A program made the translations under genes and the position numbers. Positions 38,813-57,239 of a stretch of 64,000 bases of DNA are shown in pieces (position 1 is the first letter of the stretch; the number at the start of each line of letters is the position of its first letter). The notes beneath the pieces were generated by a model. It was given only the letters and a program-made list of their open reading frames with translations. It made no database searches and had not been told where the DNA came from. This DNA comes from Nocardioides sp. (GTDB lineage: Bacteria; Actinomycetota; Actinomycetes; Propionibacteriales; Nocardioidaceae): NCBI GenBank assembly GCA_002729525.1, contig PBYI01000069.1:1-64000 (forward strand), written 5' to 3'.

Positions 38813-39718
38813 TCAGAGGCGCCAGGACGAGTCGACCTCGAAGTAGACGTCGAGGGCGTCGCGGGAGCGCTCGGGGTTGGCCCGCGCGAGGGCGAGGTAG
38901 AGCGCGTCGACCACGGCCAGGTGGGCCAGCCGCCCCGACAGTGACTCGAAGCGGAACGACAGCTCGCGGCCGCTGGCGACCAGGGCGTGGTCGACCCGCT
39001 CGGTCAGGCGGGTGCGCGGGAAGCTGGTGATCGCCACCGTCGGCACGTCGCGGGAGGTGAGCGCCTCGGCGCACCGGATGGTGTCGCGGGTCGCGCCGGT
39101 GTGGCTGATGATCAGCGCGGCAGCGGTCGGCGGAGCGGTGCGGCAGCGGAGGTACTTGAGGTTGGTCTCCTCCGGCGCGGTGGCCTTGAGCCCGATGGAG
39201 GAGAACTGGTCGCGGGCGCCGCGCGCGACGTTCAGCGAGGCGCCGAAGCCGATGATGATGATCTCCGAGGCCGCGTCGAGGAGCGTCACGGCCGCCTCGA
39301 AGGCCTCCGGGTCGATGCTGCTCGCGGCGTCCCGGATGATCTCGGCGGACAGCCCCATGACCTTCACCAGCACGTCACCCGGGGCGTCGGTGGGCTCGAT
39401 GTCGCCGCCGTAGGCGTACGTCGTGAGGCTCTTGGTCTCGCCCGCGAGCGAGATCTTCAGGTCCTGGAAGCCGCTGAAGCCGAGCGTGCGGCAGGTGCGG
39501 ACGGTGGTCGACTCCGCCGAGCCGGCCCTCTCGGCGACCTCGCCGACCGTCATGTGCACGACCTCGTCCGGGTGCGCGAGCACGAACTCCGCGACCCGTG
39601 CCTCGCTGGGCGCGAGCGTGGGGAGCCGAGCCCGGATGCGTCCGGTGACGGAGCGGCCGTCGGCGGTGCGGCCCTGCGGGCCGATGCCGGTCCCTCGTGG
39701 TCTTCCCACGTGCTTCAC
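38813..39718 (-). CDS. MurR/RpiR-family regulator (HTH plus SIS)
   Basis: A 301-residue regulator from GTG 39718, which overlaps the kinase stop (GTGA). Residues about 25-100 are the RpiR helix-turn-helix (LAPSEARVAEFVLAHPDEVV, then RAGSAESTTVRTCRTLGFSG). The C-terminal half is a SIS sugar-phosphate-binding domain (IIIIGFGASLNVARGARDQF, then ISHTGATRDTIRCAE). MurR/RpiR proteins respond to phospho-sugars and control sugar or nucleoside catabolism. As last gene of the importer-kinase operon it probably senses the kinase product. The N-terminal 20 residues are basic. Confidence 0.9.
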   Translation of the reverse strand: MKHVGRPRGTGIGPQGRTADGRSVTGRIRARLPTLAPSEARVAEFVLAHPDEVVHMTVGEVAERAGSAESTTVRTCRTLGFSGFQDLKISLAGETKSLTTYAYGGDIEPTDAPGDVLVKVMGLSAEIIRDAASSIDPEAFEAAVTLLDAASEIIIIGFGASLNVARGARDQFSSIGLKATAPEETNLKYLRCRTAPPTAAALIISHTGATRDTIRCAEALTSRDVPTVAITSFPRTRLTERVDHALVASGRELSFRFESLSGRLAHLAVVDALYLALARANPERSRDALDVYFEVDSSWRL

Positions 39719-40701
39719 CCGGCCGCGCGCGGCCGTTGCCTCTCGATCGGATCAGCCTCGCAACGACCGCAGCGGAACGCCGCGTCGTCGCGGATCCAGG
39801 CGGTGCCGCCGGAACGGGGCAGGAGCATATCGCCGCGGGCACCGAGGTGGAGGCAGGTCTTGGCAGCAGCACGACTGGCCGTGACCAGCGCGTCCTCGGG
39901 GGTGGCTCCGTCGACCAGCGCGGCGGCCGCCGCGGCGGTGAAGGCGTCGCCTGCGCCGATGGTGTCGACCGGGGGCTGGTCGAGCGCCGACGGCACCCGG
40001 GACCAGCCGCCCCGGCCGGCGTACCGGACGCCCTCGGCGCCCTCGGTCACGACCCGGAGGGCTCCCGCCGTCTCCGCGGAGTCCAGCGCCGGCGTGTAGT
40101 GGTCGAGGTCCTCGGAGGAGACCTTCACGACGTCCGATCGGGCGGCGAGGTCGCGCATCGCGGGCGGCAGGCACTCGCGCAGGGAGGCCTCGAACCAGAC
40201 GAGCGTCCCGCCGTCCTGCGCGACCCGCGCCAGCTCGACGGTCGTCGCGTCGGCGACGTCGACGACGAGCAGGTCCGCCTCGCGCACGGCACGTGCCACG
40301 TCCGGGCCCAGCTCGTCGGGTCGCGGCACCTCGAGCAGGTGGCCCCGCGGCCGGCCGCAGCGCGGGCACTCCAGCAGCAGCGACGGGGAGCCGCCGCCGT
40401 CCGCGGCGTCGGCGACCTGGAAGACCCGCGGGGTCAGGTAGCCGACGCGCCCCACGACGCCCGTGGTCCCGACGCCCCAGCGCTCGAGGTCGGCCCGCAG
40501 CAGGTCGGCGGCCGCGTCGTGGCCGACCAGGGCGACCATCTCCACGTCCCACCCGTCCGCCGCGAGTCGTACGGCGATGTTGGCGCCGGAGTTGCCCACG
40601 GCCGCCTGCGCGGTCGGTGCCGACACGTCGCCGGCGACGAGGTCGACCGAGACGGTGCCCACGACGACGGCCCGACGTCGGGCCGTCGCGGGCGCGGTCA
40701 C
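39715..40701 (-). CDS. PfkB-family kinase with two unusual CxxC pairs
   Basis: A 328-residue ribokinase-like kinase from GTG 40701. It shows the PfkB Gly-rich start (AVGNSGANIAVRLAADGWDV) and the catalytic GAGDAFTAAAAAALVDG signature with its Asp base. Two Cys pairs are unusual: C112/C115 (ECPRCGRPRGHL), in a loop after the lid strands, and C311/C314 (RCGRCEAD) near the C-terminus; together they could bind zinc. It overlaps the permease upstream and the RpiR gene downstream by 4 nt each. PfkB enzymes phosphorylate sugars, nucleosides or hydroxymethyl-pyrimidines; here the substrate likely arrives through the ABC importer. Confidence 0.85.
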   Translation of the reverse strand: MTAPATARRRAVVVGTVSVDLVAGDVSAPTAQAAVGNSGANIAVRLAADGWDVEMVALVGHDAAADLLRADLERWGVGTTGVVGRVGYLTPRVFQVADAADGGGSPSLLLECPRCGRPRGHLLEVPRPDELGPDVARAVREADLLVVDVADATTVELARVAQDGGTLVWFEASLRECLPPAMRDLAARSDVVKVSSEDLDHYTPALDSAETAGALRVVTEGAEGVRYAGRGGWSRVPSALDQPPVDTIGAGDAFTAAAAAALVDGATPEDALVTASRAAAKTCLHLGARGDMLLPRSGGTAWIRDDAAFRCGRCEADPIERQRPRAAG

Positions 40702-41576
40702 CGGCTGCTCCGGCGTACGACGTACCGGTCGCCGAGCCAGACCTCGAGGAACCCGAGCAGGCTGTAGGCCAGCACCGACAGCAGCACGACGACGAAGATG
40801 CCGCCCCACATGTCGACGTACCGGTAGTTGGCCCGGGCGAGGTTGATGAAGGTGCCGATGCCCTCGCCGGTGGCGATGTACTCGGTCAGGATCACGCCGC
40901 TCAGCGAGGCGGGCAGCGCCAGCTTGCTCGCCGAGATGAGTCCGGGCACCGAGCTGGGCAGCCGGACCGAGACCAGGCGACGCCAGCCACTGCCACCGAG
41001 CACGGCGGCGAGGTCGTCGATGCCGCGGGCAGCGGAGCGCATGCCCGAGACGATGCTGATGAAGCACGAGAAGAACGTGATCATCACGCACACGGTGATC
41101 GACGTCGCCGGCCCGCGGCCGACGAGCATGATCACGACCGGCGTGATCACGATGACCGGGACGACACCCAGCACCACGGCGAGCGGCATGATCGCGCGGG
41201 CCATCGCGGCCGACGCGGTCACGACCGACGCCAGGGTCAGCGCCACCAGGACCGCGATGAGGTAGCCGGCCAGCAGCATGGTGAACGTGCTCAGCAGGGC
41301 TGCGGCCAGCTCGCCGACGTTCTCGCCGCTGACGGCGAACTCCACCGCCTCCAGCGGACCGCGGAGGAACTGGTTCTCGGGAAGGGTCAGGTAGACGACC
41401 TGCCACAGCAGCATCAGCACCAGCAGCGGGCCGATGCCGGCCAGCAGCTCGGTGGCCAGCAGCCGCAGCGGCCGGTCGGACTGTGAGCGGGCGGTCCCGG
41501 TGGCACCGGCTCGCGAGCGGCGCACGCGGCCGGTAGTGGTGGTCCCGGCCGCACCGGTGGTGGTGGCCTGGCTCAT
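40698..41576 (-). CDS. ABC importer permease (NitT/TauT type), second copy
   Basis: A 292-residue membrane protein from ATG 41576. About six transmembrane helices; the ATPase-contacting EAA loop reads GSGWRRLVSVRLPSSVPGLI. The N-terminal 35 residues are Thr/Gly/Arg-rich and cytoplasmic. Its start overlaps the stop of the first permease (ATGA) and its stop overlaps the kinase start. With the partner permease, ATPase and lipoprotein it forms an importer of the class used for nitrate, taurine, thiamine precursors and aromatic N compounds. Confidence 0.88.
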   Translation of the reverse strand: MSQATTTGAAGTTTTGRVRRSRAGATGTARSQSDRPLRLLATELLAGIGPLLVLMLLWQVVYLTLPENQFLRGPLEAVEFAVSGENVGELAAALLSTFTMLLAGYLIAVLVALTLASVVTASAAMARAIMPLAVVLGVVPVIVITPVVIMLVGRGPATSITVCVMITFFSCFISIVSGMRSAARGIDDLAAVLGGSGWRRLVSVRLPSSVPGLISASKLALPASLSGVILTEYIATGEGIGTFINLARANYRYVDMWGGIFVVVLLSVLAYSLLGFLEVWLGDRYVVRRSSR

Positions 41577-42391
41577 CGGGTCAGCTCCTCGGTCCAGGGG
41601 AGGGCCCGGGCGACCAGCTCGACCAGGGCGAATGACAGGGCGCACACCAGGGTGATGACGATGCCGAGCGCGTAGGCGCGCGGGGCGTTGAGCTGGGCCA
41701 GGCTGTTGATCATCAGCACCCCGATGCCGCGGGCGCCGCCGAAGTACTCCGCGAGCGTCGTGCCGAGCACGGCCGTGGGGAGCGCGATCCGGGCCGCGAC
41801 GAGCAGCTCGCGGGTGGAGGCCGGGATCTGCACCGAGCAGAAGTAGCGGCCCCGGCCGCCGCCGGTGACGGCCCGGAGGTCCTCCCACTCCTCATGCCGG
41901 GCGGTGAGGCCCTGGGCCAGGGAGATGTAGATCGGGAAGACGACCGAGATCGCGGCGAGAGCGACGTGCGGGCCGGGCAGCTCGAGGACCAGGAAGAGCA
42001 GCGGCGCGATGGCGGCCAGGGGCAGGCAGAAGACGATGGTCAGCTGCCGGGCGATGGGTCGCCGCAGCGGCGGGACGGCCACGGCCAGCACCGCGAACGC
42101 CGCGGCGACCGCGGCGCCGTACGCGAGGCCGCGACCGGCGGAGCCCAGGGTGACCAGCAGGGCGGGCTGGATGATGTTCCAGTCGTCGCCGAGCGCGGTG
42201 ACGACCTGGGCGGGCGTGGGGAGCAGGCGCCCCTCGCCGGGCGCGACGCCGGCGTACCAGTTCCACAGCAGCACGAACGCCGCCAGCACCAGCGCCGCGG
42301 GACCGTAGCGGACGACCCACCAGCCCGCGCGGCGGCCGAGCCCGGCGAGCGGGAGCCCCGGACGGGCGGCGGTGACCTCAGACGCCGACAT
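41573..42391 (-). CDS. ABC importer permease (NitT/TauT type), first copy
   Basis: A 272-residue permease. Six hydrophobic segments and an EAA-type loop (GGGRGRYFCSVQIPASTRELL). The start overlaps the ATPase stop by 14 nt, and the stop overlaps the next permease by 4 nt. Two different permeases suggest a heterodimeric channel instead of the homodimer usual in TauC/SsuC systems. Confidence 0.88.
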   Translation of the reverse strand: MSASEVTAARPGLPLAGLGRRAGWWVVRYGPAALVLAAFVLLWNWYAGVAPGEGRLLPTPAQVVTALGDDWNIIQPALLVTLGSAGRGLAYGAAVAAAFAVLAVAVPPLRRPIARQLTIVFCLPLAAIAPLLFLVLELPGPHVALAAISVVFPIYISLAQGLTARHEEWEDLRAVTGGGRGRYFCSVQIPASTRELLVAARIALPTAVLGTTLAEYFGGARGIGVLMINSLAQLNAPRAYALGIVITLVCALSFALVELVARALPWTEELTR

Positions 42392-43187
42392 CGGCGCCCC
42401 CGCCCCCGGGTGCGGCGGACGCCTCGGCGGAGCGCAGCACGTCGCTCACCCGGGCGCAGAGCCGGAAGAACTCGTCGCTGCCCAGCAGCTCGGCGTCACG
42501 GGGCCGGGCGAACGGCACGTCCACGATCTCCACGACGCGTCCGGGGCGAGCGCTCATCACCACGATCGCGTCGCTCAGCAGCACCGCCTCGGCCACCGAG
42601 TGGGTCACCATCACCGTGGTGATGCCCTCGTGCATCCAGATCCGCTGGAGCTCGAGGTTGAGCTTCTCGCGGAGCATCTCGTCCAGGGCGCCGAACGGCT
42701 CGTCGAGCAGCAGCAGCTTGGGCCGGGTGACCAGCGCCCGGGCGATCGACACGCGCTGACGCATGCCGCCCGAGAGCTGGGCCGGTCGCGACTTCTCGAA
42801 GCCCCGGAGCCCGACCAGCTCGATGAGCTCGTCGACGTACTCCTTGTCCTTCGGCAGCCCCGCCATCTCCCGGGCGAAGGCGATGTTGCGCTGCACCGAG
42901 CGCCACGGGAGGAGGGCGGAGTCCTGGAAGGCCATCCCGAGCTCGTGGGCCCGGACCCGCTGACGCGGGGTGCTGCCGCCGAGCGAGATGGTCCCGGAGG
43001 TGGGGGTCTCGAGGGAGGCCAGCGACCTCAGCAGGGTGGACTTGCCCGACCCGCTAGGCCCCACCAGCGACACGAAGCCGCCGGCAGGCACGGTGAAGGA
43101 CACGTCGGTGAGGGCCTCGACGGGCCCCGCCGCGGTGGCGAACGTCTTGCAGACGTCCGCCACCGCGATGTCGAGAGAGTGGTCCAT
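42378..43187 (-). CDS. ABC importer ATP-binding protein (NitT/TauT type)
   Basis: A 269-residue ATPase with Walker A GPSGSGKSTLLRSLA, a Q-loop at MAFQDSALLPW, signature LSGGMRQRVSIARAL, Walker B LLLLDEPFGALD and the switch His in MVTHSVAEAVL. This is the SsuB/TauB group by sequence style. It couples ATP hydrolysis to import through the two permeases. It lies 20 nt after the binding-protein gene and overlaps the first permease. Confidence 0.93.
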   Translation of the reverse strand: MDHSLDIAVADVCKTFATAAGPVEALTDVSFTVPAGGFVSLVGPSGSGKSTLLRSLASLETPTSGTISLGGSTPRQRVRAHELGMAFQDSALLPWRSVQRNIAFAREMAGLPKDKEYVDELIELVGLRGFEKSRPAQLSGGMRQRVSIARALVTRPKLLLLDEPFGALDEMLREKLNLELQRIWMHEGITTVMVTHSVAEAVLLSDAIVVMSARPGRVVEIVDVPFARPRDAELLGSDEFFRLCARVSDVLRSAEASAAPGGGGADVGV

Positions 43188-43207
43188 GACGGATCGGGCG
43201 TCGGTGC

Positions 43208-44284
43208 TCAGCTGTCCTGCGGGGGCAGCTGGCCGAAGTCCGGGTCCTCCTCGTGAATCTCGTCCAGCAGGGACATGTCGATGAAGTCGCCGCCGTCCTC
43301 GGGCATCTCGGTGCCGAGGATGGTGCTGAGGGTGTCCATGGACAGGGCGAGCTCGTCGCCGGCCATGTAGCCGATGCCCTCCTCCTCGGACGTCGGCGAG
43401 TAGAACAGCTCGGCGGCCGACTCGGCGGTGTAGAGCTCGGTGTCGTACTCCAGGCCGAGCTCCTGGCCGTAGCGGTCGACGGTGAGCTGGGCAGCACCCT
43501 CGGGGTCGTTGATCATGTCGAGCTGGCCCTCGAGGTCGGCCTTCAGCAGCGCCTTGATCTGCTCGCGCTTCTCGTCGTCCTCGAGGTCCTCGCGGCGCAC
43601 GGTGTAGACGTCGACGTAGTAGCCGTAGCCGTAGTCCTGGAGCAGGAAAGCCTCCGGGTCCATGCCCTGCGCCTCGAGCAGCGCCGGGCCCTCGGTGATG
43701 AAGCCCATGTAGGCGTCCACGTCGCCGGCGGCCAGCGCCTCCGGGCCGGTGGTGATCGGGACGACCTCGACCTGGGAGGTGTCGATGCCCGCAGCGGTGG
43801 AGAACTGCTCCCACACCGACTGCGAGGTGGCGGAGATGCCGACCTTCTTGCCCTCGAGGTCCGACGGCTCGGTGATGCCGTCCTCGGCCTCGGAGATGAA
43901 GGACAGCGGGCTGCCCTGGTACATCGTGCCGATGACGACGTAGTCACCGCCGTCCTGGTTCAGCGTGGCGGGCTCGGTGAGACCGGAGAACGCCATCAGG
44001 GCCTGGCCGGAGCTCAGCGCGGCCATGAAGTCGACGTTCGGACCGCCGGTGGCGATGTCGACGTCGAGGCCGGCCTCCTCGTAGTAGCCGTTCTCCTGGG
44101 CGAGGTAGCTGCCTGCCCAGGTCGAGTTGGTGATCCAGTTGAGCTGGAGGGTGACCTCGTCGAGCCCGGAGGCGGACTCGGAGGAGTCGTCGGAGCCGCA
44201 GGCGGCCAGCGTGCCGGTCAGGAACGTGGCGGCTGCGATCGAAGCGACGGTGCGGCGCAGTCGGCGCCGGGAGGTGGAGTGCAT
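43208..44284 (-). CDS. NMT1/THI5-like substrate-binding lipoprotein
   Basis: A 358-residue binding protein. The signal peptide ends in the lipobox TLAAC with Cys29 lipidated. The mature protein opens VTLQLNWITNSTWAGSYLAQ, close to the NMT1/THI5 pattern (LNW-x(8)-G-x-Y-A), and continues with VDFMAALSSGQALMAF and KVGISATSQSVWEQF. This family binds hydroxymethylpyrimidine, riboflavin, nitrate, taurine and aromatic N-heterocycles. The ligand cannot be read from the sequence, but the LNW start favours pyrimidine-like ligands over sulfonates. Confidence 0.9.
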   Translation of the reverse strand: MHSTSRRRLRRTVASIAAATFLTGTLAACGSDDSSESASGLDEVTLQLNWITNSTWAGSYLAQENGYYEEAGLDVDIATGGPNVDFMAALSSGQALMAFSGLTEPATLNQDGGDYVVIGTMYQGSPLSFISEAEDGITEPSDLEGKKVGISATSQSVWEQFSTAAGIDTSQVEVVPITTGPEALAAGDVDAYMGFITEGPALLEAQGMDPEAFLLQDYGYGYYVDVYTVRREDLEDDEKREQIKALLKADLEGQLDMINDPEGAAQLTVDRYGQELGLEYDTELYTAESAAELFYSPTSEEEGIGYMAGDELALSMDTLSTILGTEMPEDGGDFIDMSLLDEIHEEDPDFGQLPPQDS

Positions 44285-44301: not shown

Positions 44302-45405
44302 TCAGTGTGCCGTGGGGTTGATGAGGTCTGCGAGGTCGAGGTCGTAGAGGACGTCGCCGAAGGTGTGGCGACTCCCCCAGCCGACGTCGATCCCGCGCAC
44401 CCTGCCGATCGCGCCGACGAGAAGCAGCAGGAGAACGAGGGACCCGACCTGCTCCGCGGCCGGTGAGTCACCGGTCGCCGCGAGCCCCGCGTGCGGGACG
44501 TGGTCGGGGATCGCGTCCAGGGAGGTGCGCGCGTAGGGCTCCTCCCGGACGCCGTACAGGGCGACGACGCCGGCCTCGGCCAGGCGGGGCAGCATCATCT
44601 GGTAGCGCCCGTGGGCGAAGTTGCGGTACTCCGACATGCTCAGCTCGCCGAGCCCGGACTCGGCGAACTTGGAGTCCAGGTCGATGGCCGCCGTCTTGGT
44701 GTCCGGCCCGTGCAGGAACACCAGCAGCGGCTGCGCCAGCGCCTCGCCGAGGACGTCGACGACGTGGTCGAGGGCGGCGTCGACGTCGGTGACCTCCGGA
44801 CCACCGGGCAGCAGGTCGGCCAGGGAGGCGGGCACCGTGCCCAGCGTCGGGTGGGCCTGGGCGAACGCGCGGGCCAGGACGACGGCCTGGGCGAGCAGCA
44901 CGTTGACCGCGACCCAGCCGTGCACGTCCGGGAGCAGCTCGAAGGCGAAGACGTCGACGTCGGTGCCGGCGAGCAGCTGCTCACCTGGCGAGTCGACCTT
45001 GCCGCAGAAGACCGCAGCGTCGACGGGCACCTGCGGCAGCAGGCGGCAGCAGGCGAGGGAGTCGCTGTGGCCGCCGCTGGCCGTCACCAGGAGCACGGCG
45101 GTGTCGACGGCGTCGCCGAGGAGGTAGAGGTCCATCGGCTCCCGGCTGGCGCCCAGCCGACCGGTCGCGCGCTGGTGCAGCTGGGCGGCGAGCTGGGCCA
45201 CGGCCAGGGAGCCGCCGGCGCCCGCCGCGACGAGCGGACGGTCGCCGTGGTCGCGGAGCCAGGCGGCCAGGTCGGTGACGTCGACGGCCGCGGCCTCGGC
45301 GTACGTCTTCTCGAGCTGGCGGAGCTCGTCGACGTAGTCGATGACGACGAACCGCTCGAAGTCGGTCGCCCCTGGTGCGGCGGGGGCGTGAGGGTCGGCA
45401 GGCAT
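44302..45405 (-). CDS. SIS-domain protein (putative sugar isomerase/lyase)
   Basis: A 367-residue cytoplasmic protein. It has two SIS-like halves: the first with LVAAGAGGSLAVAQLAAQLH, a Ser/Gly pocket and VTASGGHSDSLACCRLLPQV; the second shows LLVFLHGPDTKTAAIDLDSK, then ESGLGELSMSEYRNFAHGRY. SIS domains bind phosphosugars and act in aldose-ketose isomerases, aminosugar deaminases and lyases. Placement at the head of the importer operon and the RpiR SIS regulator at its end imply a phosphosugar intermediate. Reaction unknown. Confidence 0.78.
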   Translation of the reverse strand: MPADPHAPAAPGATDFERFVVIDYVDELRQLEKTYAEAAAVDVTDLAAWLRDHGDRPLVAAGAGGSLAVAQLAAQLHQRATGRLGASREPMDLYLLGDAVDTAVLLVTASGGHSDSLACCRLLPQVPVDAAVFCGKVDSPGEQLLAGTDVDVFAFELLPDVHGWVAVNVLLAQAVVLARAFAQAHPTLGTVPASLADLLPGGPEVTDVDAALDHVVDVLGEALAQPLLVFLHGPDTKTAAIDLDSKFAESGLGELSMSEYRNFAHGRYQMMLPRLAEAGVVALYGVREEPYARTSLDAIPDHVPHAGLAATGDSPAAEQVGSLVLLLLLVGAIGRVRGIDVGWGSRHTFGDVLYDLDLADLINPTAH

Positions 45406-49030: not shown

Positions 49031-49857
49031 TGGCGCGCCCGGCTCTCGCGGTCCTGGTGCCCGGCCCCGCGGGCGACGGCTCCTGGGTCGACGCCGCGCT
49101 GGCGTCGTACGACGGTGTGGTCGCGGGCGAGGACGTCGTCGTGGTGCACGGGACGCCCGACCGGCTGCCTGACGCCGACGTGGTGCTCGCGCACGGCATC
49201 CAGTACGCCCCGCTGGTGCGCGCGGCTCCTGACCGGACGGTCGTGATGAGCGACGTGCCGGCCTCCGTCGAGGGGCTCGGGCACGCCACGCTCGTCGACT
49301 GGGCCTGGTACGAGGCGGCCCGGGTCGCCGGACGCGTCGCGGCGGTGGTCGCCGACGGCCTGCCCGTCGGCCTGGTCGCCGGCCCCGCCGTCCCCACCCA
49401 GCGCAAGGTGGCCGACGCCTTCTCGGCCGGCGTCGCCGACGCCGGGACCGGCTGCGCCACAGTGGCCGTGCACCTGCCGTCGTTCGACGACGTCGCCGGC
49501 GGTCGTGGGGCCGGCACCCGCCTCGTGGAGGCGATGGGGTGCCGGGTCCTGCTCGGCACGGCCGACGGCGCGGGCGACGCCGCAGCGGAGCAGGCCCGCG
49601 CGGCCGGTGCGCTGACACTCGGCTTCCTCCGGCCCCACCCCGACGACCTCGGGCACGTGCTCAGCGACGTGACCGGCGTGCTGCGCGGGCTCGTCACCGA
49701 CGCGCTCGCCACCGGGCGCACCGGCACCGCTGCCGGGCACGACCGTCCCGTCCACGCCGGCCTCGCCTCCGGCCACCTCGACCTCGTCCTGAGCGACCAC
49801 GTCGGCGCCGCCGCCGTACGCGCTCGGGCGGACGCCCTCGCGGCGTACGCGGGCTGA
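49030..49857 (+). CDS. BMP-like ligand-binding-fold protein without signal peptide
   Basis: A 275-residue protein whose ATG overlaps the amidohydrolase stop (TGATG). VADGLPVGLVAGPAVPTQRK followed by VADAFSAGVADAGTG resembles the fold of BMP/PnrA nucleoside-binding lipoproteins (GGM-x(2)-P-x(4)-F-x-x-GF-x-AG). There is no signal peptide or lipobox, so it is cytoplasmic, unlike BMP proteins of importers. It could be an enzyme or a binding protein for a nucleoside-like intermediate. Family assignment is tentative. Confidence 0.58.
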   Translation: MARPALAVLVPGPAGDGSWVDAALASYDGVVAGEDVVVVHGTPDRLPDADVVLAHGIQYAPLVRAAPDRTVVMSDVPASVEGLGHATLVDWAWYEAARVAGRVAAVVADGLPVGLVAGPAVPTQRKVADAFSAGVADAGTGCATVAVHLPSFDDVAGGRGAGTRLVEAMGCRVLLGTADGAGDAAAEQARAAGALTLGFLRPHPDDLGHVLSDVTGVLRGLVTDALATGRTGTAAGHDRPVHAGLASGHLDLVLSDHVGAAAVRARADALAAYAG

Positions 49858-49910: not shown

Positions 49911-51059
49911 ATGACCACCCTCACCCTGCCCCTCGTGGAGGCCTGCCCGAAGAAGATGCGGCTCGGCCCCTGCGGCGGGGTCGGCCCCGACGGCGGCTGC
50001 GAGATCGACCCGTCGCACGCCTGCCTCTTCCTCGAGCCGGAGTGGGCGTCCGCCCAGGCTGCGTCCGCCCCGGTCACGCCGGCCACCCATCGCACCGCCC
50101 CGGGCACGAGCGCCTTCCAGGACCGGCTCGACTCCGGCGCCTTCGGCGTCGTCGCCGAGGTCAACGGACCCGACACCGTCGACGTCACCGAGTTCGTCAC
50201 CGCCGCCGAACGGATCGCCGAGGTCGCCGACGTCGTGTCGGTGACCGACCACTCCGGCGCGACCGTGCACATGGGCAACGTCGCGGCGACCGCGCACCTC
50301 CTGGCCCGCGGGCTGGAGGTGATGCCGACCTTCGGCTGCCGCGACCGCAACCGGATGGCGCTCCAGGGCGACCTGCTCGGCATCGCCAGCCTCGGCGCCC
50401 GCAACGCGCTGCTCGTGACCGGCAACCACCCGGAGGTCGGCGACAGCCCCGACGCCACGCCGGTGTTCGACCTCGACAGCCCCCGGCTGCTCCAGGTCGC
50501 GGCGCGGATGCGCGACGAGGGCCGCTACGCCAACGGCCGTCCGATCGAGGAGCGGCCGCGCCTGTACCTGGGCGCCACCGCGCACCCGTTCGCGCAGCCG
50601 TACGACGACCGCCCGGGGCAGGTGCTGCGCAAGGTGGTCGCCGGCGCCGACTTCGTGATCTCCCAGCACGTCTTCGACCTGCCGCTGTGGCGTCGCTTCG
50701 TCGACGGCGTCAACGCGCTGCGCGGCGACGCGCCGCCGTTCCACCTGCTCGGCGGCGTGGCGATCCTCCCCGACGAGCCGATCGCCCGCCGCGTCAACGC
50801 CGGCCTGCGCGGCTTCTCGATCCCCGAGGAGACCCTGACCCGGCTGCGGCAGGCCAGGGACCCGCAGGCCGAGGGCATCACCATCGCCGCCGAGATCGTC
50901 GCCGAGCTCGACGCCACCGACGGGGTGTCCGGCTGCCTGCTCGCGCCGGTCACCGGCCGCAGCAACGCGCTCACCGCGAGCGCCGAGCAGACCGAGCTGA
51001 TCGCCGAGGTCCGGCGCCAGGCCGGCGTGCCGGTGCCGGTGTCGGGGGCCGCTTCGTGA
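49911..51059 (+). CDS. MTHFR-like enzyme with N-terminal four-cysteine motif
   Basis: A 382-residue protein. Residues 10-40 hold C12, C21, C30 and C38 in ACPKKMRLGPCGGV and nearby, the Cys pattern of the MetV/MTHFR C-terminal zinc-binding family, here placed N-terminally. Residues about 65-370 are a MetF-type TIM barrel (FGVVAEVNGPDTVDVTEFVT, then ARNALLVTGNHPEVGD and FVISQHVFDLPLWRRFVDGV). Classical MetF reduces methylene-tetrahydrofolate. In a catabolic operon, folate-linked one-carbon removal is plausible. The 53-nt leader has GGAG 10 nt before ATG 49911. Confidence 0.76.
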   Translation: MTTLTLPLVEACPKKMRLGPCGGVGPDGGCEIDPSHACLFLEPEWASAQAASAPVTPATHRTAPGTSAFQDRLDSGAFGVVAEVNGPDTVDVTEFVTAAERIAEVADVVSVTDHSGATVHMGNVAATAHLLARGLEVMPTFGCRDRNRMALQGDLLGIASLGARNALLVTGNHPEVGDSPDATPVFDLDSPRLLQVAARMRDEGRYANGRPIEERPRLYLGATAHPFAQPYDDRPGQVLRKVVAGADFVISQHVFDLPLWRRFVDGVNALRGDAPPFHLLGGVAILPDEPIARRVNAGLRGFSIPEETLTRLRQARDPQAEGITIAAEIVAELDATDGVSGCLLAPVTGRSNALTASAEQTELIAEVRRQAGVPVPVSGAAS

Positions 51060-52141
51060 GCCCCCGCGCCGGCGGGGGCGGTGCCGGCGTGGAGGAGGGC
51101 TCCGTGATGACGGTGACCGGCCCGCTGGCCGCCGCCGACCTCGGCCTGGTCCTTCCGCACGAGCACCTCATCGCCAACGCCACCAGCCAGTGGCGGGTAC
51201 CGGAGTCCGACGAGGACCTCGCCGAGCAGACCCGGCCCTACCGGGCCGAGCTGCACGGCAAGGTGCAGACCCAGCCGTTCTCCTACCGGTCGGCCATGCA
51301 GCAGCTCGACCTCGACGTCGCCCTCACCGAGCTCCGGTCGTACGCCGCCGCGGGGGGTGGCACGGTCGTCGAGCTGGGGATCCCCGGCTATGGCCGGGAC
51401 GCCGCCGCCCTCCAGGTGCTGTCACGGCTCTCGGGGGTGCCCGTGGTGATGGGCTGCGGCGAGTACGTCGCGCACTCCCACTCGCCGTACGTCCGGCACG
51501 TGGGCGCCGAGGTCGTCCGCGACGTGCTCATCGACGAGATCACCGTCGGCGTCGGCGCCACCGGTGTGCGGGCCGGGATCATCGGCGAGATCGGCAGCGG
51601 CAACCCGGTCGACGAGCAGGAGCTCAAGGTGCTCGACGCGGCCGCGATGGCGCACCTGGAGACCGGCGTGCCGATCAACATCCACCGGTCGATCTTCCCC
51701 GACCCGATGGCCGGGCTGGTCGCGCTCGACCGGGTGCTCGACCACGGCGTCGACCCGGCGAAGGTCGTCGTCAGCCACTGCGACGAACGGCCCGAGCCGG
51801 AGTTCGCGCTCGCCGTCGCCGAGCGCGGCGCCTGGGCGGAGCTCGACACGTTCGGCATGGAGCAGTGGGCCTCCACGGCCCGCCAGGGCACGACGTACCC
51901 GGCGCGGTCCTACGACCACCACCGCATCGACATGCTGCTCCGGCTGCTGGACGCCGGGCACCTCGACCGGGTGCTGCTCAGCCACGACATCGCGATGAAG
52001 CCGCAGTTCAGCGCGTACGGCGGCTGGGGGCTCACCCACCTGCTCACCAACATCCGGCCACAGCTCGAGGCGCGCGGGGTCGCGCCGGCGGAGGTCGACC
52101 GGATCATGCGGGACAACCCGCGGCGGATGCTCGCGGGCTGA
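51056..52141 (+). CDS. Phosphotriesterase-like (PTE/PHP family) hydrolase
   Basis: A 361-residue TIM-barrel metalloenzyme from GTG 51056, which overlaps the MTHFR-like stop (GTGA). Metal ligands: HEH (H35, H37 in LVLPHEHLIA), His in GVPINIHRSIF and VVVSHCDERPE, and Asp in RVLLSHDIAMK. The bridging residue is Glu in IIGEIGSGN, in place of the carboxylated Lys of true phosphotriesterases, as in E. coli Php-type proteins. Homologues are often lactonases or amidases. Last gene of the GntR operon, followed by two strong hairpins. Confidence 0.87.
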   Translation: MSPRAGGGGAGVEEGSVMTVTGPLAAADLGLVLPHEHLIANATSQWRVPESDEDLAEQTRPYRAELHGKVQTQPFSYRSAMQQLDLDVALTELRSYAAAGGGTVVELGIPGYGRDAAALQVLSRLSGVPVVMGCGEYVAHSHSPYVRHVGAEVVRDVLIDEITVGVGATGVRAGIIGEIGSGNPVDEQELKVLDAAAMAHLETGVPINIHRSIFPDPMAGLVALDRVLDHGVDPAKVVVSHCDERPEPEFALAVAERGAWAELDTFGMEQWASTARQGTTYPARSYDHHRIDMLLRLLDAGHLDRVLLSHDIAMKPQFSAYGGWGLTHLLTNIRPQLEARGVAPAEVDRIMRDNPRRMLAG

Positions 52142-52177: not shown

Positions 52178-52181
52178 TGCG

Positions 52182-52270: not shown

Positions 52271-53218
52271 TCAGACCTGCGGCGCCCAGTACCGCGCGCC
52301 CGACTCCTCACGTGCGGCGTCCATCCGCTGCAGCCGGCGCAGCCCGTCCACGAGCGTGGTCGTGGCGTCCTCGATGCCCGCGCCGACGGCCAGGGTGCGC
52401 CCGGACGGGTAGGTGTCGGTGCAGCCGAGCACCACGCCGGTACGCCGCCCGAACAGCGACCCGAGCGTCACCACGGCCGACGCCTCCCGGTCGTTGCTGA
52501 GCACGCCCGCGCGCACCCAGTAGTCGACCACCTCTGCGTGCCGCGGTTGGAGGTAGCCGCCGATCGACGGGCGGCCGTTGCCGAGGATGTCGGAGTCGGT
52601 GGAGCGGGTGACGCCCGCGTGCACCGAGGCGCCGGCGTCCTGGGCGGCGCCGAGGAACGCCGCCACCACGTCGTACGACGTCGCGGCGGGGTAGTGCGAC
52701 TCGACGTACGCCCGGGTCATGCCCTCCTCGCGCACCACGCCGGTGGAGACGACGACGTCGCCGGGGTGCAGGAACGGGTGCAGGCCCGCCGCGGCGCCGA
52801 AGTAGACGAGCACCTCGGCGTCGGTGTGCTCGAGCAGCTCGACCAGGGCGAGCTCCAGGTCCGGGCTGCCACTGCCGGTCGCGACGACGGTGACCGACTC
52901 GCCGCCTCCGAGCGGGGCGGTGGCGGTCTGGAAGAGCCCGGTGGAGCCGACCTCCTCGGCCGGCCCGAAGCGCGACGCCAGCCGGTGCGCGTGACCGGGC
53001 CCCTCGTGCCCGCCGAGCGGGTCGCGGACGCTGAGCACGACGTACTTGCCGACCTTGGTGGGGTCGATGCCGGTCAGCGCCGGCCGTCCGTCGATGGACA
53101 GCCCACGCTCCGGCATCACGTCGCGGTAGCCGTAGTCGTCGAGCACCCGGCGACGCAGCCGGGTCACCGCCTCGCGGTCCTCGGCGGAGACCCAGGCGGG
53201 GTCGTGGAATCCGGTCAT
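52271..53218 (-). CDS. Nucleoside phosphorylase (PNP/UDP superfamily)
   Basis: A 315-residue protein. The fold marks are TVVATGSGSPDLELALVELL (phosphate-binding loop), VYFGAAAGLHPFLHPGDVVV and SDILGNGRPS. A long N-terminal extension (about 70 residues) carries GKYVVLSVRDPLGGHEGPGH, and the C-terminus has GVVLGCTDTYPSGRTLAVGA. Phosphorolysis would split a nucleoside into base and sugar 1-phosphate. Its ATG overlaps the stop of the PfkB gene (ATGA), so kinase and phosphorylase are made together. Substrate unknown; uridine phosphorylase-like by gross style. Confidence 0.8.
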   Translation of the reverse strand: MTGFHDPAWVSAEDREAVTRLRRRVLDDYGYRDVMPERGLSIDGRPALTGIDPTKVGKYVVLSVRDPLGGHEGPGHAHRLASRFGPAEEVGSTGLFQTATAPLGGGESVTVVATGSGSPDLELALVELLEHTDAEVLVYFGAAAGLHPFLHPGDVVVSTGVVREEGMTRAYVESHYPAATSYDVVAAFLGAAQDAGASVHAGVTRSTDSDILGNGRPSIGGYLQPRHAEVVDYWVRAGVLSNDREASAVVTLGSLFGRRTGVVLGCTDTYPSGRTLAVGAGIEDATTTLVDGLRRLQRMDAAREESGARYWAPQV

Positions 53219-54189
53219 CGCGTGTCTCCTGGTCGGGTGGTGCTCGGCTGGGGCTGGGACTGGGGCTGGGGCCCGGACGGCAGCGGGCGCACGGTCACGG
53301 TCGCGGCGAGGGCCGCCGCCCGTTGCCGCGCCGTACGTCGGTCCACCGGCGGGCCGGTGCGCTCGATCGCCGCGGCAGCCGCGCCGGTCGCGGCGACGGC
53401 GGCAGCGGGGACGTCGTGGTCGCGGACCCAGGCGGCGAGGAAGGCGCCGGACCAGGCGTTGCCGCCTCCGGTGGGATCGACGACCGTGACGTCGGCGGGG
53501 GAGACCTCCCAGGCGCCGGTGGCGTCGGCGACGACCGAGCCCGCACCGCCCCGGCGGAGCGCGACGACGTCGGGTCCGAGCGCGCGCAGGGCCGCGACGG
53601 TCTCGACGGGCGACAGCGGGCCGACGAGCGCGTCGGCCTCCTCGGCATTGATGGAGAGGACGTCGGTCGCGGCGAGCACGGTCAGGGTCTCCGACGACGG
53701 CTCGGGGACGCAGAGCCGCCCGGGGATCTCCCACATCAACGGTGTGCCGGTCACGCGGACGTGGTCGAGGACGGGCTGCCAGAAGCCGGGGTGGTGGTCG
53801 CGGAAGACGTAGTAGGCGCGCGCCGAGCGCGCCGGCTCGGGCCCCTCGGGGTGCATGGTGCGCATCGCGACGTGGCCGGCCCAGTCGGGCAGCCACTCCT
53901 CGTGCCGGTGCTCCCCGACGGGATAGGTGATGAGGGTGCGCGGGGTGGTCGGGCCGTCGACGAGCAGGGCGCCGGTGTCGATGCCGAGCCGCTCCATGGT
54001 GCGGCGGTGCGGCTCGAAGTCCTCGCCGACGCGACAGGTGAGCGCGACCCCGTCGGCGACGGTCGCGGCTCCGACGGCGGCCCAGAAGCCGGAGCCGCCG
54101 AGCACCTCGTGCGGCGGCGGGCCCTCGAACGAGTCGAGGACCACGCGCGAGATCACGAGCACGTCGGGCTCGGCGGGAGCGGTCACCAC
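53215..54189 (-). CDS. Second PfkB-family kinase
   Basis: A 324-residue kinase from GTG 54189 (GTG 54186 possible). GSGFWAAVGAATVADGVALT is the sugar-binding strand and loop, VLSINAEEADALVG the ATP-side region, and VVDPTGGGNAWSGAFLAAWV the signature, with the base changed from the usual D-T-x-GAGD-x-F to D-P-TGGGN-AW: the catalytic Asp is replaced by Asn. The C-terminal tail is Pro/Gln-rich (PSGPQPQSQPQPSTTRPGD). Kinase activity is therefore uncertain. Coupled to the phosphorylase downstream. Confidence 0.78.
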   Translation of the reverse strand: MVTAPAEPDVLVISRVVLDSFEGPPPHEVLGGSGFWAAVGAATVADGVALTCRVGEDFEPHRRTMERLGIDTGALLVDGPTTPRTLITYPVGEHRHEEWLPDWAGHVAMRTMHPEGPEPARSARAYYVFRDHHPGFWQPVLDHVRVTGTPLMWEIPGRLCVPEPSSETLTVLAATDVLSINAEEADALVGPLSPVETVAALRALGPDVVALRRGGAGSVVADATGAWEVSPADVTVVDPTGGGNAWSGAFLAAWVRDHDVPAAAVAATGAAAAAIERTGPPVDRRTARQRAAALAATVTVRPLPSGPQPQSQPQPSTTRPGDTR

Positions 54190-54401: not shown

Positions 54402-54845
54402 ATGAGCGGAGACGCACCCGTCGTCCGTCGGCTCACCGAGCTGCCGGCCTTCCTGATCAGCGCCGACGACACCGTCCGGCTCGTCGAGCTCGCCGGACCG
54501 ACCCAGGGGACGAACGCCAGCATCTTCCTCGAGATCTGGGAGCCCGGCGGCGCCCAGCCGGTCAACTCCCACAAGGACTCCGCGGAGACCTTCGTCGTGC
54601 TCTCCGGTCAGGCCGAGGCGCACTCCGACGACACGGTCGTGGCCCTCGGCCCCGGCGACGTCCTGACCCTGCAGCCGGGGTCGGAGCACCGCATCTTCAA
54701 CACCAGCGAGACCGACCGGCTCTACACGATCACCGTGATGGCCAACGACGGCGGCTTCGCCAAGCTCGTCACCGACGGCACGCAGGTGCCGCTGGAGGAC
54801 ACTGACGTCGCGGTGCTCGCACCCGGCGCGCTCGATGCGGACTGA
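54402..54845 (+). CDS. Cupin-domain protein
   Basis: A 147-residue single cupin. The two motifs are NSHKDSAETFVVLSGQAEAH (motif 1, with His and Glu) and GDVLTLQPGSEHRIFN (motif 2, His). AGGGAG lies 5 nt before ATG 54402; a TAGCGT -10 is at 54328-54333, preceded by the tandem TGTTTCGG at 54250 and 54261. Small cupins act as isomerases, epimerases or dioxygenases. It overlaps the amidase gene by 11 nt, so it is part of that operon. Confidence 0.82.
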   Translation: MSGDAPVVRRLTELPAFLISADDTVRLVELAGPTQGTNASIFLEIWEPGGAQPVNSHKDSAETFVVLSGQAEAHSDDTVVALGPGDVLTLQPGSEHRIFNTSETDRLYTITVMANDGGFAKLVTDGTQVPLEDTDVAVLAPGALDAD

Positions 54846-56463
54846 GCCGACCGAGCGCACCGACCGCGCGACGGACCTGCTCGCCGACCCCGACCTCCCG
54901 GCGCTCCTCGACGTCCTGCGCCGGTACGAGACCGCCCTGGCGCACCACGACCGGGAGGTGCTCGACGCCGCCTTCGTCCCCGGCGGTGCGGGTGCGCCGG
55001 TCCGGGCAGCCGGTGGCGCGGCTGCCGTCGGCGCGACGCAGATCGCGGCCGGTCGTGCGCACGGTGGTCCACCCCCGCCGCGCCGACCGGTCCGCCTGCA
55101 CCTGCGTCGCGTCGACGGCGCCTGGACCGCGACGCTCGAGGGGCTGCGCTCCGATGGCACGCCCACCCAGCAGACCCAGGTCTGGGACGGCCGGGACGGC
55201 TGGCGGGTCGTGGCGGCGCACGTCTCCCACGGCGCACCGCCGGCGCCGCGGCCGCCCCACGACGACCAGGACGACCGGGACCACCAGGACGACCGGGACG
55301 ACCTGAACGCCTGGCGGGTCCACGAGCCCGCCGGCCTGGAGCCGTCCGGCGAGGGGCCCCTCGCCGGTGTGCGCGTCGCGGTCAAGGACCTGTACGACGT
55401 CGCCGGTCACGCGCGCGGCGCCGGCACCCCCACGGTGCTGGCGTCGGCGCCGCCCGCCGCCGCCCACGCCACGGCGCTGCAGCGACTGGTCGACGCCGGG
55501 GCCGGGGTCGCGGGCATCGCTCGCACCGACGAGCTCGCCTTCGGGCTCTCCGGCGTCAACGCCCACGAGGGTGTCGTCGCCAACCCCGTACGCCCGGGCC
55601 GGCTCGCCGGTGGGTCGACGTCCGGACCGGCCGCCGCGGTCGCCGCGGGTGAGGCCGACCTCGGTCTCGGCACCGACCCCGCCGGGTCGATCCGGGTCCC
55701 GGCCTCCTACTGCGGACTGCTCGGCCTGCGCCTGACCCACGGTGCCGTGCCTCTCACCGGCGCCCAGCCGCTCGCCCCGTCCTTCGACGCCGTGGGTCTG
55801 CTCGCGCGCGAGCTCGACGTCCTCCGCGCGGGAGCGTCGGTGCTCGTGGGCGGCGTAGGCCCGGACGTCCCCGTCGAGCGACTGCTGGTCCCGCCCACCC
55901 TGCTCGACCTGGCCGACCCGACCAGCCGCGACGCCGTCGTCGCCGGCGTGCTGGCGCTCGCCCTGCGCGCCGGCTGCTCCCCGGAGGCGGTCGACGTCGT
56001 CGGCGCCGTCGAGCTGGAGGAGTGGTTCGCGGCGTTCCGCGCGGTCCAGGCTGCCGAGGCGTACGCCGAGCACGCCGCGCTGCTGCGCGACCACCCCGAC
56101 GCGGTCTCGCCCGACGTGCGCGACCGGCTGCTCGCCGGCGACCTCCCCGCCGCCGAGGTCGACCGGCACCGCACCGTCCTCGCCCGGGCGACCGGCACGA
56201 TCGCCGACCTGCTGCCCACCGGCACCGCCCTCGCGATCCCGAGCGCGGCCGGCCCGGCCCCGCTCGCGACCACCCGCGGCGCCGCGCTGGACGACGTACG
56301 GGCGCGGACGCTGCGGCTGGGCTGCCTGGCCTCGCTCGCCGGACTGCCCGCCCTGTCGCTCCCCACGCCGCTCGCCGACGGCGACCCCGTCGGGCTGTGC
56401 CTGGTGGCCGGGCGCGGCCACGACCTGTCCCTGATCTCCCTCGCCGAGAGGACCCTGTGGTGA
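54835..56463 (+). CDS. AtzH-like domain fused to amidase-signature hydrolase
   Basis: A 542-residue fusion. Residues about 15-132 are an AtzH/DUF3225-type SnoaL-fold domain (LPALLDVLRRYETALAHHDR, then VWDGRDGWRVVAAHVSHG). An Asp-rich linker (DDQDDRDHQDDRDD) leads to an amidase: catalytic Lys184 in AVKDLYDVAG, cis-Ser in GGSTSGPAAAVA (259-268) and nucleophile Ser285 in DPAGSIRVPAS. AtzE/AtzH hydrolyse 1-carboxybiuret in s-triazine degradation; here both are on one chain. Start overlaps the cupin gene and stop overlaps the next gene. Confidence 0.84.
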   Translation: MRTEPTERTDRATDLLADPDLPALLDVLRRYETALAHHDREVLDAAFVPGGAGAPVRAAGGAAAVGATQIAAGRAHGGPPPPRRPVRLHLRRVDGAWTATLEGLRSDGTPTQQTQVWDGRDGWRVVAAHVSHGAPPAPRPPHDDQDDRDHQDDRDDLNAWRVHEPAGLEPSGEGPLAGVRVAVKDLYDVAGHARGAGTPTVLASAPPAAAHATALQRLVDAGAGVAGIARTDELAFGLSGVNAHEGVVANPVRPGRLAGGSTSGPAAAVAAGEADLGLGTDPAGSIRVPASYCGLLGLRLTHGAVPLTGAQPLAPSFDAVGLLARELDVLRAGASVLVGGVGPDVPVERLLVPPTLLDLADPTSRDAVVAGVLALALRAGCSPEAVDVVGAVELEEWFAAFRAVQAAEAYAEHAALLRDHPDAVSPDVRDRLLAGDLPAAEVDRHRTVLARATGTIADLLPTGTALAIPSAAGPAPLATTRGAALDDVRARTLRLGCLASLAGLPALSLPTPLADGDPVGLCLVAGRGHDLSLISLAERTLW

Positions 56464-57239
56464 CCGACCCGACGCCCACCCCGACCGCGCTTCCGGCGTA
56501 CCGCCGCAACGACTGGACCCTGGACGCCGACTCCGCCGACCTGCGCCGGGCAGCGCCCGAGCCGCGGACGGTGACCTTCGACGCGCTGCCGCAGCGGCTC
56601 ACGGTCGACCTCGCGCGCACCGCGGTGCTCGTGGTCGACATGCAGAACGACTTCTGCCACCCCGACGGCTGGCTGGCCGGCATCGGCGTGGACGTCTCCG
56701 GCGGCGCCGGCGCCGTCGACGCGCTCGCCGGACTGCTGCCGCGGCTGCGGTCGGCGGGTGTGCCGGTGGTCTGGGTGAGCTGGGGCAACCGGCCCGACCA
56801 GGTCAACCTGCCGCCCAACGTGCGCCACGTCTACGACCCCGAGGGCCGGGGTCTCGGGATCGGGTCGGGCAACAGCCCGGCGGGTGCGCCGGTGCTCGAG
56901 GCGGGATCCTGGGGTGCCGCGCTCGTCGACGGCCTCGCCGTGGAGCGCGGCGACCTGAGCGTCGACAAGTACCGGATGAGCGGCTTCGTCGACACGCCCC
57001 TCGACTCGGTGCTGCGCCAGCTGCGGGTCGACACCCTCCTGCTCACCGGGGTCAACACCGACCAGTGCGTCTACGCCACGCTGGTCGACGCCGCCAACCT
57101 CGGCTACGACACGGTGCTGCTGGAGGAGGCCTGCGCGACGACCTCGCCCGACTTCTGCCGCGAGGCGACGCTCTACAACGTGCGCCAGTGCTTCGGCTTC
57201 ACCGCGCACGTGGCCGACCTGGAGGCCGCGCTGGGCTGA
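56460..57239 (+). CDS. Isochorismatase-family cysteine hydrolase (RutB/biuret hydrolase-like)
   Basis: A 259-residue hydrolase from GTG 56460, overlapping the amidase stop (GTGA). The triad is Asp60 (VLVVDMQNDF), Lys170 (SVDKYRMSGF) and Cys203 (TGVNTDQCVYATLVDAANLG). This branch includes RutB (ureidoacrylate hydrolase) and biuret hydrolases, which cleave ureido or carbamoyl bonds. Together with the AtzH-amidase fusion it suggests stepwise cleavage of a urea- or biuret-like chain, releasing ammonia and CO2. Exact substrate unknown. Confidence 0.86.
   Translation: MTDPTPTPTALPAYRRNDWTLDADSADLRRAAPEPRTVTFDALPQRLTVDLARTAVLVVDMQNDFCHPDGWLAGIGVDVSGGAGAVDALAGLLPRLRSAGVPVVWVSWGNRPDQVNLPPNVRHVYDPEGRGLGIGSGNSPAGAPVLEAGSWGAALVDGLAVERGDLSVDKYRMSGFVDTPLDSVLRQLRVDTLLLTGVNTDQCVYATLVDAANLGYDTVLLEEACATTSPDFCREATLYNVRQCFGFTAHVADLEAALG

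Follow-up and report, generated by a model that had tools for sequence, protein, structure and literature searches.

The reductive route of uracil catabolism employs a flavin reductase, a cyclic amidase and a ureide hydrolase, and this route and several other described systems resemble in part a gene block that we have analysed in an actinobacterium. The block comprises 18 genes at positions 38,813 to 57,239 of a 64,000-nucleotide stretch of Nocardioides sp. DNA (GCA_002729525.1, contig PBYI01000069.1, positions 1 to 64,000, forward strand; hereafter the window) and, judging from the protein families it encodes, probably lets its host import and dismantle a nitrogen-containing ring compound.

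With the Rut pathway of E. coli (RutA-RutB), the block shares a RutB-like hydrolase in which the Asp, Lys and Cys are conserved, and other loci of this RutB-like family have a luciferase-like protein nearby. However, none of the block proteins scanned against Pfam and NCBIfam (16 of the 18, permease 2 and the ATPase being left out) matches RutA or RutC-G; instead, the block encodes an MTHFR-like protein and a phosphotriesterase-family (PTE) metallohydrolase. The luciferase-like protein encoded next to the block reaches only 22.3 bits against RutA, and the 400-residue luciferase-like proteins of the other loci have no RutA match at 1e-10. Cyanuric acid catabolism (atzDGEHF) and oxalurate catabolism (HpxXZ) have in common with the block the AtzH/HpxZ-like Tyr/Arg pair and an AtzE-type amidase, but in the block the AtzH-like domain and the amidase are fused, the cut-offs for AtzE and allophanate hydrolase are missed, and no scanned protein matches AtzD, with small open reading frames (ORFs) such as AtzG not having been sought. 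In the triuret and biuret clusters (trtA, biuH, bmpA-nupABC) of Herbaspirillum and nitrifiers, an isochorismatase-like ureide hydrolase lies near amidases and BMP-type transport proteins, as described in PMC12625717 and PMC7948467, the latter dealing with TrtA; ammonia-oxidizer contigs in PMC12625717 add a creatininase and a GatA-like amidase. These are the nearest published relatives that we found of the block's back end, i.e. its cupin, AtzH-amidase and RutB-like hydrolase. The block differs in that its BMP-like protein is tied to the MTHFR-like protein and shows no signal peptide on inspection, and in that none of its proteins exceeds the allophanate hydrolase cut-off.

The MetV-MetF proteins encoded beside corrinoid methyltransferase genes on Paracoccus, Sinorhizobium and Azoarcus plasmids have the MTHFR fold and a DUF5981-type domain, as the block protein does, whereas the latter is fused in one chain, has Asn for Asp and is accompanied by no corrinoid system that we could see. 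Lastly, nucleoside clusters of Kribbella-like genomes (nucleoside phosphorylase, a GGGN-type PfkB protein, a SIS protein and a second PfkB) hold the phosphorylase and its PfkB partner in the same order as the block, but with a different ABC (ATP-binding cassette) importer, YjbQ and ADP-ribosylglycohydrolase, and with no heterocycle core alongside. Searches of the open-licence PubMed Central literature gave no description of the MTHFR-PTE set or of the whole gene cluster.

Results

Our gene calling, by a purpose-written coding-score caller together with the ORF list, gave the same count of 18 genes and the same ends as the original prediction. To place the block in its genus, a joined query was compared with 40 same-genus genomes, the window's own included, and RecQ-SNF2 distances were counted by hand. 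RecQ and the SNF2 helicase, which flank the block ~23 kb apart, are separated by less than 17 kb in at least 34 of the 39 other genomes and by less than 6 kb in at least 28; among the remaining five, two have the genes on separate contigs, two have them ~43 and ~97 kb apart, and the fifth has no SNF2 among the matches listed. The luciferase-like gene downstream of the block was found in at least 6 of the 39. It starts 21, 26 and 87 bp past RecQ in the relatives G220, G218 and G238, respectively, where the block is absent, while 18.5 kb lie between RecQ stop and luciferase-like start in the window; directly upstream of this start, the window, G220 and G218 have CCTAGGCTCG in common. The block looks like one extra segment of ~18.5 kb, with ends almost exactly at the predicted ones. 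Because three relatives have RecQ and the luciferase-like gene without it in between, and because the MTHFR-like gene adjoins both the PTE and the BMP-like gene in four of four loci (the window, two Nocardia and one Cellulomonas), it is not a chance assembly. Most simply, the block was acquired here in its entirety, although acquisition in steps, or loss from the relatives, is a possible alternative history. No pair of terminal repeats was seen by eye in the junction sequences, the computed search having taken each block end separately.

On sequence comparison, the block is divided into three layers: a recurrent back end, a rare front end (BMP-like, MTHFR-like and PTE) and a set of sugar/nucleoside genes. 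For the front end, MTHFR-like orthologues of 62-68% identity were found in Nocardia miyunensis, N. jiangxiensis and Cellulomonas bogoriensis; the peptide-pattern scan of our contig collection reaches close relatives only, and 3 of its 40 candidate stretches were retained. Both Nocardia stretches also encode the amidohydrolase (52-53% identity), the RutB-like hydrolase (59-60%), the cupin (51%) and the AtzH-amidase (43-46%), along with an ABC importer and a regulator of the GntR type. One Cellulomonas contig carries the start of the BMP-like gene, the MTHFR-like, PTE and GntR genes and the start of an AtzH domain, and a second carries the cupin, an ABC importer and the later part of the BMP-like gene, the two BMP pieces fitting together (residues 6-127 and 154-255). 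At 1e-30, the only close MTHFR-like orthologue among 245 order genomes was the window's own; 124 of 396 phylum genomes matched the profile at 1e-40, none besides the window (self-score 748) above 241 bits, which leaves no further close orthologue, and a PDB search with this profile gave no match at 1e-5. PTE relatives on plasmids comprised 194 records, every one below 60% identity. Thus, in the scans made, the BMP-like/MTHFR-like/PTE front end is rare, occurring in the window, the two Nocardia and the one Cellulomonas only.

The MTHFR-like protein scores 65.5 bits against Pfam MTHFR (cut-off 24) and 35.8 bits against the MetF equivalog TIGR00676 (cut-off 293.7). In all four orthologues, it retains the equivalents of E. 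coli MetF Glu28, Lys172 and Gln183 and has Asn (Asn172 in the window) at the place of Asp120, which we take to be the catalytic, folate-activating position of E. coli MetF, whereas all four plasmid relatives aligned retain the Asp. Three more distant plasmid relatives adjoin genes for an MTHFR C-terminal domain, a corrinoid/cobalamin-binding protein and methyltransferase-type proteins. Of two further MTHFR matches in the genome, one is weak (24 bits) and the other, at 305 bits on contig C70, is likely the housekeeping MetF. In the amidohydrolase, H71, H73, H240, E243, H272 and D323 are invariant in all five sequences aligned, and its best models, PRK08204 and 8-oxoguanine deaminase, both remain under cut-off; in the PTE protein, H18, H20, E161, H193, H224 and D294 are invariant in four of four. 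For the BMP-like protein, a predicted model of modest quality (pLDDT, predicted local distance difference test, 60) gave PnrA (1.6e-7) and AtzT (1.3e-5) as best Foldseek matches, with a template-modelling score of ~0.4, which supports assignment to the periplasmic-binding-protein/PnrA class and nothing finer.

In the back end, the isochorismatase-type triad of the RutB-like hydrolase (D61, K171, C204) is invariant in six of six sequences, and it aligns with the solved RutB structure as well as with two variant chains in which the Asp and the Cys are altered. The protein reaches 133.6 bits (8.1e-39) against the RutB equivalog TIGR03614 (cut-off 377.95) and 116.4 bits against biuret hydrolase BiuH, NF050097 (cut-off 370). 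The AtzH-like domain exceeds its cut-off (35.6 bits versus 27), and Y31 and R57 are invariant in seven of seven sequences, an alignment that does not include AtzH itself; according to PMC6219798, which treats AtzH, the corresponding pair there is Tyr22 and Arg46. The fused amidase stays below the equivalog PRK08310 (350.3 bits, cut-off 391), which a relative in locus L099 exceeds with 432.8 bits. The amidohydrolase, PTE, RutB-like, amidase and AtzH-like parts all keep residues required for their chemistry, in the catalytic roles that we presume for them.

A RutB-like profile matched 20 of 394 class genomes at E<=1e-70, the window's own included. For each of the other 19 genes, up to 20 kb of surrounding sequence was compared with reference proteins by blastp, and since several of these stretches stop at contig ends, the counts are lower bounds. 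A cupin (17), an MBL hydrolase (17), an amidase (16), a 400-residue luciferase-like protein (15, one merely 40% identical and on the opposite strand) and an XRE-cupin regulator (14) are frequent neighbours, followed by creatininase-family (10), formamidase-family (FmdA, 10), GlcD-like (5) and CodA-like (3) proteins; MTHFR, PTE, BMP, nucleoside phosphorylase, PfkB1, PfkB2 and SIS matched in none of the 19 stretches. At one locus (L102), the AtzH-like domain is carried by the neighbouring MBL protein and the amidase is unfused, and Roseomonas has HpxZ as a gene of its own. A Kribbella-like genome combines cupin (71%), amidase (50%) and RutB-like (67%) genes with creatininase, GlcD-like, CodA-like and MBL genes, and in N. 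jiangxiensis a CodA/creatininase module of this type adjoins the MTHFR-type module. A Roseomonas plasmid holds RutB-like, cupin, creatininase, amidase and HpxZ genes together, and a Pantoea plasmid a BMP importer, cupin, RutB-like and amidohydrolase genes; from these actinobacterial and plasmid-borne proteobacterial loci, the back end appears to be widespread with varying front ends. In a RutB-like tree (25 rows, none from Cellulomonas), the window shares a set of four with three CodA-type rows (100/99) and the Nocardia rows fall elsewhere, on a tree with long branches; in a cupin tree (24 rows, Cellulomonas included), one CodA-type row joins the four of MTHFR type (92/90), and the window is nearest to Cellulomonas (92/79).

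Two side observations concern these loci. Those numbered L096 to L114, with RutB-like, luciferase-like, creatininase, formamidase-family and MBL genes, apparently form a pathway family of their own, and at L113:1944-2453, next to a back-end locus, a ureidoglycolate-lyase-family gene lies beside a luciferase-like gene, which hints at an allantoin-like or ureide product.

The sugar/nucleoside layer behaves differently. A tblastn search of 32 related stretches, run without positive control, returned nothing at 1e-4 for RpiR, PfkB1, SIS-like, nucleoside phosphorylase and PfkB2, and the SIS-like protein, phosphorylase and PfkB2 had no match at 1e-5 in the two Nocardia and the Cellulomonas genomes. 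The original prediction, taken as one conserved pathway of all 18 genes, is therefore not supported, and its 'nucleoside-like or glycosylated' substrate draws on this genome alone; the co-occurrence in other genomes by which it proposed to be judged holds for the heterocycle core and breaks down for the sugar part. Of its two PfkB kinases, both have the PfkB fold, but PfkB2 lacks the GAGD catalytic motif (VDPTGGGN), whereas PfkB1 and the other PfkBs inspected have GAGD or GSGD; PfkB2 presumably resembles Mak32-like proteins. The same GGGN occurs in the PfkB partners of the phosphorylase in three Kribbella-like genomes (four of four in total), where the pair has the same order and the phosphorylase is 47-49% identical. 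Aligned with solved uridine phosphorylases, the block phosphorylase has GNGR for GQER, and it reaches 108.9 bits against TIGR01718 (cut-off 280.3). Near the pair in L060 lie an adenosine deaminase, an ADP-ribosylglycohydrolase, a SIS protein, YjbQ and a second PfkB; L059 and L061 look like the scanned L060, and a nucleoside hydrolase in these clusters is named from sequence alone.

PfkB1 remains under every equivalog cut-off listed, including that of the FrlD-type kinase NF007321 of the fructoselysine Frl operon (35 bits, cut-off 247). Against ribose-1-phosphate kinase NF053626 (cut-off 330), PfkB1 and PfkB2 reach 47.2 and 34.8 bits, so that a pentose bisphosphate pathway is not supported by the kinase scores. 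The genome has no RuBisCO match, which does not decide the matter; the haloarchaeal version runs without RuBisCO, according to PMC9700705.

The SIS protein of the original prediction is a weak assignment, with no Pfam SIS match up to 1e-3 and no NCBIfam match, but an hhalign probability of 56% to SIS proteins of the three Kribbella-like genomes, one row of which was checked against Pfam. A single-sequence fold prediction was unusable (pLDDT 37). The protein is related to the N-terminal part of longer mobile-island proteins, and together with PfkB1 it is distantly related to a protein pair in such an island. This five-gene island (L062:4734-12138, L093:9989-17162, L094:3203-10352, L095:7398-14516) encodes PRTase-CE, an ORC-CDC6-like protein, a SIS-like protein of ~570-650 residues, an unknown protein and a PfkB kinase; Pfam matched PRTase-CE and ORC-CDC6-like in L062 and ORC-CDC6-like in L094, some of the SIS-like relatives are annotated as HAD hydrolase, and integrase genes lie near in L093 and L095. 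It looks like a conflict or defence system.

Pfam and NCBIfam also bore out nearly all of the predicted families (RpiR, permease, NMT1, GntR-FCD, amidohydrolase, Bmp, MTHFR, PTE, PNP_UDP_1, cupin, AtzH-amidase and isochorismatase; Table 1). The best solved relative of the NMT1-type binding protein is ThiY, which binds formylaminopyrimidine (PDB 3ix1). The S-adenosylmethionine (SAM)-dependent methyltransferase had gone unnamed before, and it found no match among the genes of related loci compared with the reference set. Overlap between nearly all neighbours had been claimed, but only 8 of 17 junctions overlap, a figure that depends on the chosen gene starts. Promoter and terminator consensus scans returned nothing.

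Table 1. Genes of the block and its flanks, in window coordinates.
Feature	Position	Strand	Evidence
RecQ, flanking the block	36654-38768		
RpiR-family regulator, HTH_6 + SIS sensor domain	38813..39718	-	Pfam HTH_6 4.3e-20, SIS 3.5e-12
PfkB1, PfkB kinase with usual VDTIGAGD motif	39715..40662	-	PfkB 4.6e-25
ABC permease 1	40698..41576	-	BPD_transp_1 8.9e-17
ABC permease 2	41573..42391	-	ORF and coding score; tblastn match to Nocardia permease
ABC ATPase	42378..43187	-	39-49% identity to ATPases of related loci
NMT1/THI5-type substrate-binding protein	43208..44284	-	NMT1 1.4e-37; PDB 3ix1 3.6e-15
SIS-like protein (weak assignment)	44302..45405	-	27-34% to mobile-island proteins; hhalign 56% to SIS proteins
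SAM-dependent methyltransferase with Rv2258c-like HTH	45515..46675	-	Methyltransf_31 9.2e-22, HTH_65 5.8e-9
GntR/FCD regulator	46926..47663	+	FCD 4.9e-22, GntR 1.7e-16
ATZ/TRZ-type amidohydrolase (probable deaminase)	47660..49030	+	Amidohydro_1 1.6e-35
BMP/PnrA-fold protein	49030..49857	+	Bmp 2.4e-8
MTHFR-like protein with N-terminal Cys-rich DUF5981 (MetV-type) domain	49911..51059	+	MTHFR 6.7e-18, DUF5981 6e-7
PTE metallohydrolase, lactonase/cyclic amidase type	51107..52141	+	PTE 6.1e-60
Uridine-phosphorylase-like nucleoside phosphorylase	52271..53218	-	PNP_UDP_1 1.2e-21
PfkB2, non-canonical PfkB protein	53215..54189	-	PfkB 1.9e-21
Small cupin	54402..54845	+	Cupin_2 9.6e-14
AtzH/HpxZ-like domain fused to AtzE/HpxX-type amidase	54835..56463	+	Amidase 2.6e-45, AtzH-like 8.9e-9
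RutB/BiuH-like isochorismatase-family hydrolase	56457..57239	+	Isochorismatase 9.2e-39
Luciferase-like gene, downstream of the block	57283-58164		
SNF2 helicase, flanking the block	60362-63433		

We considered the adjacent luciferase-like gene as a pathway member and rejected it, since it adjoins RecQ in three relatives that lack the block; this, and the order of luciferase-like gene, relative of the next ORF and SNF2 in G118, which is that of the window, make it part of the host neighbourhood. The next ORF, at 58184-59473, has a sulfotransferase-like start (GMPKSGTTYLQ) and an unusual, long C-terminal part. The relative in L118, of 354 residues, matches residues 35-230 only, so that the frame in the window may be shifted or its end miscalled.

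Discussion

That the cluster takes up a nitrogen-rich heterocycle and breaks it down by hydrolysis, as originally predicted, remains a sensible idea, given a core that recurs in two Nocardia and a block that looks like a single acquisition, although the block is more modular than had been supposed. We give about an even chance to its being an acquired catabolic island whose modules are interchangeable and act in the following order. We observed the gene content, conservation at catalytic residues, a recurrent back end, a rare and linked BMP-MTHFR-PTE set and an empty site, and each step is predicted from protein family. The ABC importer would bring in an aminated N-heterocycle of the pyrimidine, purine or pteridine type, perhaps supplied as a glycoside, in which case the nucleoside phosphorylase may, in this strain, first release it from the sugar, and the SIS-like protein and PfkB1 would handle the sugar phosphate under RpiR. 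The amidohydrolase would take off the exocyclic amino group, the MTHFR-like protein would oxidize or reduce a C-N bond of the ring in a flavin-dependent step, and the PTE enzyme would open the ring by metal-dependent hydrolysis of a cyclic amide or lactone. From the ureide so formed, the RutB-like hydrolase would remove a carbamoyl group, and the AtzH-amidase would finish the leftover amide or N-carboxylate, yielding ammonia, CO2 and a carbon skeleton. The sugar/nucleoside part is the least certain portion of this reading.

Since the MTHFR-like protein has Asn for Asp120 and a likely housekeeping MetF lies elsewhere in the genome, we infer, by analogy with reductive uracil catabolism, that it acts on a C-N bond of the substrate. 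The block route would then resemble the reductive uracil route, and that of the luciferase-like relatives near RutB-like genes the oxidative RutA-RutB route; the block's enzyme set seems to be absent from other versions of the pathway. A bolder idea, which we hold to be rather unlikely, is that the BMP-MTHFR-PTE triad constitutes a third, redox-assisted way of opening an aminated N-heterocycle. An MTHFR-fold protein that lacks the folate-activating Asp, presumably with FAD (flavin adenine dinucleotide) and perhaps Fe-S, would here act directly on the ring rather than on folate, and the triad would be interchangeable with oxidative (luciferase-like) or hydrolytic (CodA/creatininase) front ends, served by one ureide-processing back end. 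The 400-residue luciferase-like protein is missing from the four MTHFR-type and the four CodA-type loci (L083, L096, L098, L112), as the modular reading expects of alternative front ends.

Several points weigh against the modular pathway. The absence of the luciferase-like protein applies to no more than ~20 kb at each locus, and to less where a contig ends. In Cellulomonas, the amidohydrolase lies on a third contig, beside a formamidase-family gene, and no RutB-like match was found at E<=1e-5 in this fragmented assembly with short contigs. By the RutB-like and cupin trees, front and back ends need not share history or substrate, and they may have been combined more than once, contrary to one inherited pathway. 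RpiR, PfkB1, SIS, nucleoside phosphorylase and PfkB2 join the core solely in this genome. The MTHFR-like step is a guess, as Asn for Asp could equally mean a lost or different activity, and the substrate of the pathway is a prediction only.

It is conceivable, at somewhat less than even odds in our judgement, that the block is a row of two or three catabolic units that have nothing to do with each other: a sugar/Amadori-type operon, with RpiR, PfkB1, the importer and the SIS-like protein providing fructoselysine-type uptake, kinase and deglycase, the nucleoside pair of phosphorylase and PfkB2, and the heterocycle core. The lack of matches to the sugar/nucleoside proteins in all 32 related stretches would fit such an arrangement, as would the nucleoside-type clusters of three Kribbella-like genomes, which have the phosphorylase-PfkB2 pair without core genes around it, and the separate regulators and strands of the sub-operons. 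Yet these sub-operons interleave, on both strands, within one segment that is missing whole in three relatives, and the block's only ABC importer sits in the RpiR operon, while the Nocardia and Cellulomonas importers adjoin the core.

Two further alternatives reassign the chemistry. The block could serve purine oxidation, as a cluster of the NMT1/amidohydrolase type with substrates that resemble xanthine, urate or pterin, which we regard as unlikely. PMC7373994 links NMT1-type transporters to purine oxidation and has them, with guanine/8-hydroxyguanine-deaminase-like amidohydrolases, accompany a xanthine/urate riboswitch, and the fold of the BMP protein is similar to PnrA/AtzT; however, neither an NMT1-motif RNA nor any other riboswitch was found in window positions 36000-60500 (a single match, E 0.6, far under its gathering score) or in 8 scanned loci (tRNA and an ALIL pseudoknot only), and the scanned block proteins contain no dioxygenase, xanthine dehydrogenase or urate enzyme. 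Still less credible to us is one-carbon release, in which the MTHFR-like enzyme would work on tetrahydrofolate-bound one-carbon units from an N-methyl or N-CH compound, modelled on MetF, which may so act beside corrinoid methyltransferases. The DUF5981/MetV-type domain and the three plasmid relatives beside corrinoid/cobalamin-binding and methyltransferase-type genes point in this direction, but the scanned block proteins include no corrinoid protein, corrinoid-type methyltransferase or GcvT-like protein, and the Asn shared by the four orthologues replaces the Asp that the four plasmid relatives keep.

Returning to the modular pathway, we read the block as a real, rare catabolic island at one site, with a plausible chemical logic, and as a variant of ureide-forming N-heterocycle catabolism. 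With its precise site and the alternative front ends at hand, the hypothesis is directly testable. If it is true, an MTHFR-fold enzyme would have gained a non-folate job, and the RutB-like/cupin/AtzH-amidase back end would mark a family of actinobacterial nitrogen-scavenging pathways, undescribed in the papers searched, whose substrates could be traced by comparing their front ends.

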